From Candidatus Methanorbis basalitermitum (GTDB lineage: Archaea; Halobacteriota; Methanomicrobia; Methanomicrobiales; Methanocorpusculaceae): a DNA stretch of 48,638 nt. Shown here piece after piece: positions 15,743 to 48,638 of this stretch; within the stretch, counting starts at the first letter, position 1, and every line of letters starts with the position of its first letter. The stretch covers positions 1 through 48,638 of the forward strand of contig JAITSY010000013.1 in NCBI GenBank assembly GCA_031287415.1, read 5' to 3'. Below the pieces are notes generated by a model. It was not told the origin of the DNA. It searched no databases and saw nothing but the letters and a program-made list of their open reading frames with translations. A program made the translations under genes and the position numbers.

Positions 15743-15853
15743 CGGAACCATCTGTTTGAATGGGAGCTGTTCTTCAAATCTGAGATATAACAGTCTATAT
15801 CAATAGAAAATGACAAAACAGTTATAGATTATGATTAGAACTAAAAAATCCAT
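15743..15853 (+). repeat. Family A dispersed repeat, copy A3
   Basis: This copy lies in the 320-base gap between two minus-strand genes. It matches from TCTGTTTGAATGGGAGCTGT through CAGTCTATATCAATAGAAAA into an ACTAAAAAATCCATTGTTCT tail. No gene is seen in the rest of the gap. Confidence 0.8.
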
Positions 15854-15939
15854 TGTTCTATTAGCCCCCACGGCAAATCCATAATGAAGGGCGGCGAAAC
15901 AGAATAGATCTTTGTATCGAACGGCATAATGCCGAAAGA

Positions 15940-18158: not shown

Positions 18159-18270
18159 CGGAATTATCAGTTTGAATGGGAAATAGTCTTCAAACCTGAA
18201 ATGTAACAATTTAGATCAATAGAGAACTGAGAAACAATTATATATCACCACTAAAACCACTAAGTCCGAT
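18159..18270 (+). repeat. Family A dispersed repeat, copy A4
   Basis: CGGAATTATCAGTTTGAATG opens the copy, which continues through TCTTCAAACCTGAAATGTAA, a divergent ATCAATAGAGAACTGAGAAA and a TATATATCACCACTAAAACC tail with an internal TATA-like run. It lies between the cupin gene and the phospholipase-like gene. Confidence 0.8.
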
Positions 18271-18298
18271 ATAATTTTCATAGTTTTTGTGATTAGAG

Positions 18299-22650: not shown

Positions 22651-22730
22651 AAACCAACAAGACAGCGATGCCTCGTCTGCACGCTGCAGGCAGGCTGAGC
22701 TGCAAAGCCAAAGGCTTCGCAGCAGATGCT
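22651..22730 (+). repeat. Family B repeat, copy B6
   Basis: The preamble CCAACAAGACAGCGATGCCT is followed by a weakened hairpin 1 around CTGCAGGCAGGC and by hairpin 2, GCTGCAAAGCC-AAA-GGCTTCGCAGC, with a single A-C mismatch. Confidence 0.7.
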
Positions 22731-29189: not shown

Positions 29190-29463
29190 ACCAACGTAGT
29201 TTCGTTCCATATAACCGGGAGAGTACCTGCCGATGACCAACTAGGACCAACAAGGCAGGCGAGACTACAAAGGAATGGCAGCAGCTGAAGTTGTCCGTTG
29301 CGTCTGCGATCGAATCCAGGACTTTTCCGCGTGCCTCGAGGGTGGGAAATGCAACAACATGTAACAAATCGGTAGCCCTGGGTGCCTATTTTTTGCATAT
29401 GCAAATAGCAATCTACTGACTATCCATATACATATACCCATCCATCGGAAAACTTGTAACCTA

Positions 29464-29665
29464 ATGGCAGACAGCACCCGGATTCATCCAGCTGATCAGA
29501 TAAATGTCCGGCTCAGTTCCAAATTCACTCAGAAGTTCAACGCGTACATGGAGGGGCATGGGGAAAACAAAGGTCCAGTTTATTCGGGATGCTTTAGAAT
29601 ACAGGATGTCCATTGACGAAAACGGGGAGATACCCCAAAAAGAGTGGACTTATCGGTTTTTGTGA
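29464..29665 (+). pseudogene. Ribbon-helix-helix DNA-binding protein with a frameshift
   Basis: The frame begins MADSTRIHPADQINVRLSSK, a ribbon strand, then FTQKFNAYMEGHG. After GGGGAAAA near 29560-29570 the reading must shift by one base to give KTKVQFIRDALEYRMSIDEN and a stop at 29663-29665. Together they make a complete 66-residue CopG/Arc-type regulator; the 202-base span confirms one extra base. The shift sits in adjacent G and A runs, so it is either a real mutation, a sequencing error, or slippage. Confidence 0.65.
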
Positions 29666-29677
29666 TAATATATATAC

Positions 29678-29735
29678 CGGAATGATACCATAACTAACTA
29701 AGATGTATGTCTTAGTTAGTTATGGTATCATTTCG
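29678..29735. repeat. 58-bp palindromic element, copy P1
   Basis: The left arm CGGAATGATACCATAACTAA, then CTAAGA (29678-29703), pairs with the right arm 29710-29735 around a 6-base loop TGTATG. One mismatch is found in 26 pairs. The second copy at 48382-48439 has perfect arms and differs by two bases. It starts 12 bases after the broken RHH gene, where it may terminate transcription, but its exact repetition suggests a mobile or site-specific element. Confidence 0.9.
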
Positions 29736-29984: not shown

Positions 29985-30096
29985 CGGAATTATCAGTTTG
30001 AATGGGACAGTTCTTCAAATCTGAAATATAACAATCTATGTCAATAGAGAACGACGAAACAAATATAAATTACAACCAAAACCGACAAGTCCGTTA
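29985..30096 (+). repeat. Family A dispersed repeat, copy A5
   Basis: This is one of the best-kept copies: CGGAATTATCAGTTTGAATG, TTCTTCAAATCTGAAATATA, CAATCTATGTCAATAGAGAA, then CGACGAAACAAATATAAATT. It ends about 40 bases before the Tfx gene, so its TATA-like tail could be part of that promoter. Confidence 0.85.
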
Positions 30097-30136
30097 CCAA
30101 ATAGGTTTATAGTTAAACAGACGCATAAACATACAC

Positions 30137-31130: not shown

Positions 31131-31295
31131 ACAAGCATCACGCTGTCGTTTCCCCAAGGGATTAATTACTGCCAGTCTTTCAGTCTTTCAGGCTCTCTTA
31201 ACATTCCCAGAGAGAGAAGACCGACCCAAGAATGTACGTCCCATGGTCGAAGGCGAACCATATCGCAGGCCGATGGTGAAAGAACGGTTGCTCAA

Positions 31296-31368
31296 TACCA
31301 GCAATGCAACGGAACCCCACCTGCCTGTTGCAGGCAGGCAGGGCTGCAAAATCATTGATTTTGCAGCA
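31296..31368 (+). repeat. Family B repeat, copy B7
   Basis: The best hairpin pair in the window. Stem 1 is CCTGCCTG-TTG-CAGGCAGG (31320-31338). Stem 2 is GCTGCAAAATC with GATTTTGCAGC (31343-31367). In other copies stem 2 is GCTGCAAAGCC with GGCTTTGCAGC, so both sides changed together. Confidence 0.8.
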
Positions 31369-44101: not shown

Positions 44102-44374
44102 GCAACAAAACAGGTGCTGGCCTGCCTGAAGGCAATCTGGCTGGCTGCAACACCGCCTTTTTCGGGAATTTAGCCGCTAACTCTTTGACAGCGGCGCTTC
44201 ACTCCTTGCTGATTTGTATAACTGAATTCCAAACAATGGCATCCGATTTATTTACGTCAATCAGCGGATTTGTATCGAAAATTTCTGATTTGACGAACGG
44301 TTCCCATTCAGACTGATAATTCCGAAAGGAAAAGCTCTCACCGAGCGGATTGTAAAACAGCGAGACAAAGGGAG
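44102..44374. other. Intergenic region after secY with repeat remnants
   Basis: No gene is seen. CCTGCCTGAAGGCAATCTGG near 44121 is a possible degenerate family B piece, and copy A6 occupies 44280-44323. It separates two convergent operons, so a terminator is expected, but no clear T-run is present. Confidence 0.4.
44280..44323 (-). repeat. Family A dispersed repeat, copy A6 (partial)
   Basis: On the minus strand, CGGAATTATCAGTCTGAATG, GGAACCGTTCGTCAAATCAG and AAAT match the first half of the element; the TATATCAATAGAGAA half is lost. Confidence 0.6.
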
Positions 44375-47660: not shown

Positions 47661-47725
47661 GCTCTTTTTACTCCTGTAAATATATCTTTAGTATATGCTT
47701 TCAGCTGAGATATATCTCTTTATTT

Positions 47726-47771
47726 GCTGCACGCCTCTGGTAGAAGTGTGCAACGTTGCAGGGCAGCGGGA
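47726..47771 (+). repeat. Family C repeat, copy C4
   Basis: GCTGCACGCCTCTGGTAGAA, then GTGTGCAACGTTGCAGGGCA, ending GCGGG. It lies between lysS and the serA pseudogene, in the lysS promoter region. Confidence 0.6.
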
Positions 47772-47822
47772 CAAACATCTCGCCAGATGCGCAGTCATTC
47801 AACTACTATATAACAATTACAA

Positions 47823-48381
47823 CTAAACGAACTTTGCCGAGATGATACCGTCGTTTTCTCCGACATCTTTCATGATATCTGCCGGAACGACATCATCCAC
47901 AGCAAGAATCCTCAGGGACTCAGAGCCGCCATCCACCTTTCCGACCTGCATGTTAGAGATGTTGATGTTGTGTCTGCCAAGCAGGACACAGACCGGACCG
48001 ACAATGCCCAGACGATTGATATGAGATCTGCAACGAATCACATTGTCCTTCGGCACAGGGTCCATTGAATAGCCGTTAATTGACGTGATGCTGGGGGCAG
48101 CCCCGAGTAATGATGTCGGCCAACGGTCTGTGTATTCTTCGCCGTCAAAAAGGTCAGTACAACCTGTGAATTGTAATCTCCAGCATCCACAGACATCTTT
48201 TCAACAATCGTCATGCCGCACTGTTGTGCGATGAATTCCGCGTTCACCATGTTTGCCGGCTCAATGCTGCGGGCGGTGATCTGGATTCCGGATCGCATGA
48301 TCAGGGCATCGTACTAGCCGACGATCTTGACAAGTTCACCCGCGAACAGGTCGGCCATTTCATCAACGTCACAAAATTTTT
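47823..48381 (-). pseudogene. serA: D-3-phosphoglycerate dehydrogenase SerA with internal deletion
   Basis: SerA starts serine synthesis from 3-phosphoglycerate. The minus strand first gives FCDVDEMADLFAGELVKIVG, a TAG stop, then YDALIMRSGIQITARSIE, which is the N-terminal substrate domain. It continues directly with PANMVNAEFIAQQCG and VVEK-like ASB-domain sequence, skipping the whole NAD-binding and catalytic part (about 300 residues). After a frameshift near 48110 the ACT domain follows (GPVCVLLGRHNINISNMQVG) to a normal stop. The extreme N-terminus is cut at palindrome P2. The gene cannot be functional. Confidence 0.75.
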
Positions 48382-48439
48382 CGGAATGATACCATAACTA
48401 ACTAAGATGTATATCTTAGTTAGTTATGGTATCATTCCG
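48382..48439. repeat. 58-bp palindromic element, copy P2
   Basis: Perfect 26-base arms starting CGGAATGATACCATAACTAA surround the loop TGTATA. It is identical to P1 (29678-29735) except for two bases. It directly abuts the truncated N-terminal end of the serA pseudogene and lies 41 bases from the transposase fragment. Confidence 0.9.
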
Positions 48440-48480
48440 TACCGAAATATGGTGATACAGCCCATAAATGCCTCTTTTTA

Positions 48481-48630
48481 TCAGTGCCCATACGGATTCT
48501 TTTTCCGGTAGATCAGTTGTCGGCCACCACAATGCGGACAGATGACACCATCAGGGTATCTAATTTTAATGAAGTACTCTATAGCAGATAGTTCCGATGG
48601 GAACAACTCCTCAAATTCTTTGTATAACAT
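48481..48630 (-). pseudogene. IS1595-type transposase, N-terminal zinc-ribbon fragment (right copy)
   Basis: From ATG 48630 this gives MLYKEFEELFPSELSAIEYF, then IKIRYPDGVICPHCGG and RKKNPYGH before a TGA, 49 residues in all. It corresponds to the same region as the fragment at 1-143 but keeps the start codon. The second half of the zinc ribbon and the DDE catalytic domain are missing, so it cannot transpose. Its promoter side lies beyond the window edge. Confidence 0.75.
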
Positions 48631-48638
48631 TCTCCATT

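Follow-up and report, generated by a model that had tools for sequence, protein, structure and literature searches.

Six palindromes in an archaeal draft genome are probably double left ends derived from an insertion sequence of the IS1595 family

Two nearly identical 58-bp palindromes in the DNA analysed here belong to a set of six that are likely to be double left ends of an insertion sequence (IS) of the IS1595 family, each apparently serving as the terminus of a larger unit. They are IS-derived palindromic remnants of a known general kind, unusual in their build, in which the left end is present twice, and in their apparent use as the terminus of composites. The window, by which we mean the whole analysed stretch of 48,638 nucleotides, is one contig (C9) of a 1.16-Mb draft genome that is 74% complete and consists of 33 contigs. 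The genome contains mcrA, which points to a methanogen or a close relative.

Re-reading of the sequence bore out the positions given for the two palindromes in a first-pass annotation, 29678 to 29735 for P1 and 48382 to 48439 for P2, neither of which has a strand. Both had been described as perfect. This is true of P2, which has 27-bp arms that are 100% complementary around a 4-nt centre (TGTATA when the adjoining bases are included), but P1, with the centre TGTATG, has one arm mismatch (CGGAATG versus CGAAATG; 96%). As had been noted, only 2 of the 58 positions distinguish the two, with A/G in the centre and C/T at the outer edge. A chance origin is excluded: 100 dinucleotide shuffles of the window yielded no match to even one arm with up to three mismatches. 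The palindrome is predicted to form a very stable hairpin (−27.9 kcal/mol with DNA parameters).

The first-pass annotation knew of two copies, but a genome-wide search gave 23 arm matches, made up of six complete palindromes, ten single arms that run on into a longer common sequence, and one related end on contig C24. Besides P1 (C9:29678) and P2 (C9:48382), the palindromes start at C14:5880, C27:83990, C32:201 and C32:21637. With up to three mismatches allowed, the palindrome pattern was found in none of 24 other genomes of the genus, and the transposase domain PF12762 was absent from the same 24 genomes; an exact pattern scan of genome_contigs and viral_contigs also gave no copies. The palindromes are thus multicopy and lineage specific.

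The open reading frames linked to the left ends encode, by Pfam assignment, an IS1595-family transposase. The copy on C27 matches both the zinc ribbon (Zn_ribbon_IS1595, PF12760, 3.6e-10) and the ISXO2-like DDE domain (DDE_Tnp_IS1595, PF12762, 1.4e-25), and the genome has 15 matches to PF12762. Every transposase copy that we inspected was either broken or truncated at the edge of its contig. When proteins were searched across the class, the only transposases from other genomes were distant ones, at about 27 to 58% identity and often with partial coverage of the query, and a protein scan of genome_contigs, which used back-translated and probably poor patterns, matched no transposase relative. 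Apart from the palindromes there are ten left (L) ends, reading CGGAATGATACCATAACTAACTAAGATGTATATCTTAGGTTAACCTACTTTC, and 14 right (R) ends, which lie upstream of the transposase start and read CGGAATGATACCTTTACAAACGAAGAATTATATTC. In one element, at C17:33681-36501, an N6/N4 DNA methyltransferase gene with a possible SNase-like C-terminal domain sits as a passenger between the left end and the transposase.

Each arm of the palindrome corresponds to the left end's outer ~27 bp, CGGAATGATACCATAACTAACTAAGA. All copies have the tip GGAATG preceded by C or T, the one exception being the P1 arm that reads GAAATG. Wherever L and R differ, 12 of 12 palindrome arms are of the L type, reading ATAACTAACT or ATTACTAACT, as against TTTACAAACG or TTAACAAACG at R ends. 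Because all arms are L type, the palindrome is an L end fused to an inverted L end; had an IS simply lost its interior, L plus R would have resulted, and this origin was rejected for the same reason. The arms meet at a self-complementary core (CTAAGATGTATATCTTAG) that is found just inside every left end as CTAAGA-TGTATA-TCTTAG, and a 7-bp hairpin is predicted in the L end exactly where the arms join. The centres differ among the six copies. One palindrome has an A-to-T variant in both of its arms, as in the L end on C17, implying either that it arose from an L end with this variant or that the arms correct each other. A short IS copy at C11:55127-55509 looks as if its tips had been exchanged at the core, since its left end keeps the core sequence TGTATATCTTAGGTTAACC and its outer tip comes from another family (GGAATTATGCC).

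Searches for a target site duplication (TSD) of 8 bp directly outside the terminal GG found none; the signal lies one base outside the GG/CC and is 8 bp long. Exact 8-mer matches between L and R flanks numbered five, among which two L ends match one R flank, compared with 0.17 under the null (p 0.0002). Examples are TTTCAGAT (C7/C13) and ATTGATTT (C30/C14), and an element on C5 with both ends in one contig has the same layout (AAGAAATA). The duplications are A/T-rich, as in the IS1595 family, and 8-bp TSDs were also seen at some relatives in other genera.

None of the six palindromes is itself bracketed by an exact TSD. Palindrome flanks do pair exactly with R-end flanks, three times against 0.09 under the null (p 0.0008); the paired flanks lie on different contigs, and it is from the match that we infer linkage. 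The palindrome at C32:201 pairs with the R flank at C22:22204, at the end of C22, through AAAATAAT, and that at C32:21637 pairs with the R flank at C20:100 through TAATTATT, where each flank is one half of a D1 repeat (described below). The third pair, P1 with the R flank at C11:55484 (AAAATAAA), is only suggestive because C11 also contains a further end of that copy. In addition, a D1 repeat and a palindrome on C27 are together flanked by ATTCCTTT and ATTCATTT, which agree at 7 of 8 positions. Since three palindrome flanks match R-end flanks, the palindrome appears to act as an L terminus, probably of larger units. A TSD-like match (7/8) between the left flank of P1 and that of the left end on C5 was set aside because D1 repeats are frequent look-alike insertion targets.

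At P2 the palindrome ends a deleted IS that is present at two sites. P2 abuts a fragment (X, 48440 to 48638, minus strand) of an internally deleted transposase, assigned by Pfam to the parent family, in which an N-terminal part is joined to a C-terminal fragment. The junction of X and palindrome (X-P) is identical at a second site, C32:1-256, and it is around this second copy that the C32:201 and C22:22204 flanks pair; the two X-P copies have diverged by ~1%. Read from X, the centre is TATACA in C9 (48382-48439) and TGTATA in C32 (201-256), a flip suggesting that arm exchange happens. A rare variant, also found on C11, occurs in the R end at C14:16005 and in that at C22:22204, which fits the two X-P copies. 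The second occurrence of X-P, with its TSD, bears only indirectly on whether the parent transposase might mobilize the palindrome in trans.

On its other side, P2 adjoins serA, as had been reported. The gene (47816 to 48377, minus strand) is a pseudogene that lacks its first ~17 codons at P2 and, relative to its relatives, ~1 kb from its middle. Relatives have an intact serA beside ppsA, the one neighbourhood in which the synteny comparison was informative, and here the ppsA side is the end of C14, next to the R end at C14:16005. Judged by synteny across the contig gap, the X-P unit probably sits between the serA and ppsA sides, with the loss of ~95 bp including the serA start. The serA copy of the palindrome lacks a TSD, and ~95 bp are deleted from between the two flanks. 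At P1, the frameshift reported in the adjoining regulator (29450 to 29662, to the left of P1) was confirmed, and a D1-type tip (GGACTTATCGG...GATAAT, 29646 to 29669, plus strand) lies directly left of P1 and overlaps the 3′ end of the regulator. Thus the earlier statement that the two sites have no similarity outside the palindromes is correct for the direct flanks but overlooks transposon debris beside both, the D1 tip at P1 and the X fragment at P2. The serA pseudogene, the frameshifted regulator, the burst of IS copies and the broken transposases suggest a degrading genome, possibly that of a host-restricted organism.

How might a double left end arise and spread? The first joint probably formed when a cleaved left end primed fold-back (snap-back) synthesis, or else through inverted recombination of two left ends at the core. 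With authentic transposon tips on both sides, the palindrome would then provide a left terminus for any DNA enclosed by it and an R end, as the 8-bp TSDs paired across contigs suggest for X-P and for the R...P unit on C32. Template switching or recombination mediated by the palindrome could keep the arms identical and flip the centre, given the one flipped copy and the one mirrored variant. No host function is apparent, and the effect would be gene disruption and rearrangement. A more far-reaching idea, which we offer tentatively, is that the self-symmetric double left end is a portable terminus: DNA up to any right end or compatible tip would become mobile (X-P at P2, R...P on C32, D1-P on C27), flipping and self-correction would keep the arms identical, and a single IS end could in this way seed a growing composite set that reshapes a degrading genome.

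One version of the double-left-end origin treats the palindromes as rearrangement scars. Two ISs would have recombined through their inverted left-end cores, such that each palindrome joins two former sites and retains one TSD half from each. The unmatched flanks of the palindromes themselves and the three exact matches to R-end flanks elsewhere are what a scar would leave, and comparison with relatives showed low synteny around P1 and around C32, where gene order is not conserved. Against scars, each palindrome with an R partner had one on a single side. Moreover, the mirrored ATTAC variant would require two variant left ends, of which only one full example was found, and no reciprocal inner-inner product turned up, though repeats of that kind would break this assembly. 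We regard such scars as possible, with the balance tilting somewhat against them.

An ordinary miniature element (MITE) would be a 58- to 60-bp non-autonomous unit that arose once, moves as a whole and is mobilized in trans by the IS1595 transposase. Several properties agree with this: the palindromes are noncoding, multicopy and identical at their tips to the IS, with terminal inverted repeats that match it, and four of the six copies have no X fragment beside them and occupy unrelated sites. At C14:5880, AATTTCA is present on both sides, a near match with spacing that is off by one to three bases. Against a MITE, all six lack an exact 8-bp TSD in a genome whose IS copies keep exact TSDs; on general grounds, a two-ended synaptic complex may also need more room than tips 56 bp apart allow. 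We therefore consider this explanation unlikely. The suggestion in the first-pass annotation that came nearest, minimal mobile palindromes, holds for the build from transposon ends, the multicopy and lineage-specific occurrence and the apparent role as terminus of mobile units, whereas movement of a palindrome alone would call for a TSD that none of the six has in exact form. Its alternative, a recombination site, is plausible in the loose sense that flanks look exchanged and the X-P centre is flipped, with nothing seen that points to a site-specific recombinase. Its third suggestion, a protein-binding site, is right only in so far as transposon ends in general bind transposase, as these may do.

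Chimeric joins at the self-complementary core, made during assembly or whole-genome amplification, are improbable. Inverted chimeras are a known amplification artifact, and this incomplete draft does break at these IS copies and repeats. Artifacts would not explain six copies that differ in their centres and include a mirrored variant, exact TSDs that tie palindrome flanks to R ends, an X-P junction that recurs with ~1% divergence, or the palindrome-like joint that a second tip family also has. Least probable of all is a transcription terminator or regulatory hairpin, which the stable predicted fold and the position of P1 3′ of a gene might suggest but which we excluded, in keeping with the earlier view that the conservation goes far beyond an ordinary terminator, because neither P1 nor P2 is followed by a T run on either strand and the arms match the IS end letter for letter; one copy, besides, abuts serA codons and a transposase, and the 24 relatives have no copies.

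Like other members of the IS1595 family (ISXO2-like; IS1016 group and others), the parent element has a zinc ribbon and DDE_Tnp_IS1595 domain, terminal inverted repeats starting with GG, an A/T-rich 8-bp TSD and, in one copy, a DNA methyltransferase as passenger; A/T-rich 8-bp repeats have been described for ISApl4 of this family (PMC12561309). It differs in the single base (C or T) between TSD and GG, and the palindromes differ in having no transposase and two left ends in place of left and right. They resemble prokaryotic IS-derived MITEs (reviewed in PMC10969869) in being short, multicopy and noncoding with tips that match an IS of the same genome, but they are not L-plus-R internal-deletion derivatives, have almost no interior and, as single copies, lack exact TSDs. 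REP/REPIN sequences and their RAYT transposases (PMC3116915, PMC3733652) likewise tie short palindromic repeats to a transposase family; here the parent transposase is of the DDE type, copies are far fewer, and the foot of the palindrome carries neither a GTAG nor a CGTC tag in any copy. The broader principle of IS-derived nonautonomous palindromes is already known.

Nearly precise excision of Tn10 leaves a ~50-bp inverted-repeat scar of transposon tips, formed via short inverted sequences near the ends, in which both ends of one element remain at their own site with its TSD. The palindromes are likewise short inverted repeats of transposon tips, but with the same end twice and with unmatched flanks. 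What they add is a case in an archaeon of IS ends fused head to head as the apparent terminus of new mobile units, and a readable trace of IS bursts that inactivate genes such as serA and rearrange the genome. They also call for caution, in that perfect palindromes that look regulatory can be transposon-end debris.

Other repeats were noted in the same genome. D1 is a second repeat family of ~118 bp with the tips GGAATTATCAG and GGACTTATCGG; it probably represents a MITE belonging to a sister subfamily of ISs, and the IS1595 element often inserts into it. In the window it occurs at 1401-1519, 15744-15862, 18160-18278 and 29986-30103, and also at 248-290 and 44281-44323. The second tip family, with GGAATTATCAGTTTGAA arms, has palindrome-like joints at C13:21976-22024 (49 bp) and C15:23223-23268 (46 bp), and a subterminal hairpin is predicted at its end as well. 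A short intergenic repeat at 47722-47801, with about 20 partial matches in the genome, and further abundant short intergenic repeats at 2085-2155, 22651-22721 and 31295-31365 are unrelated to the palindrome.
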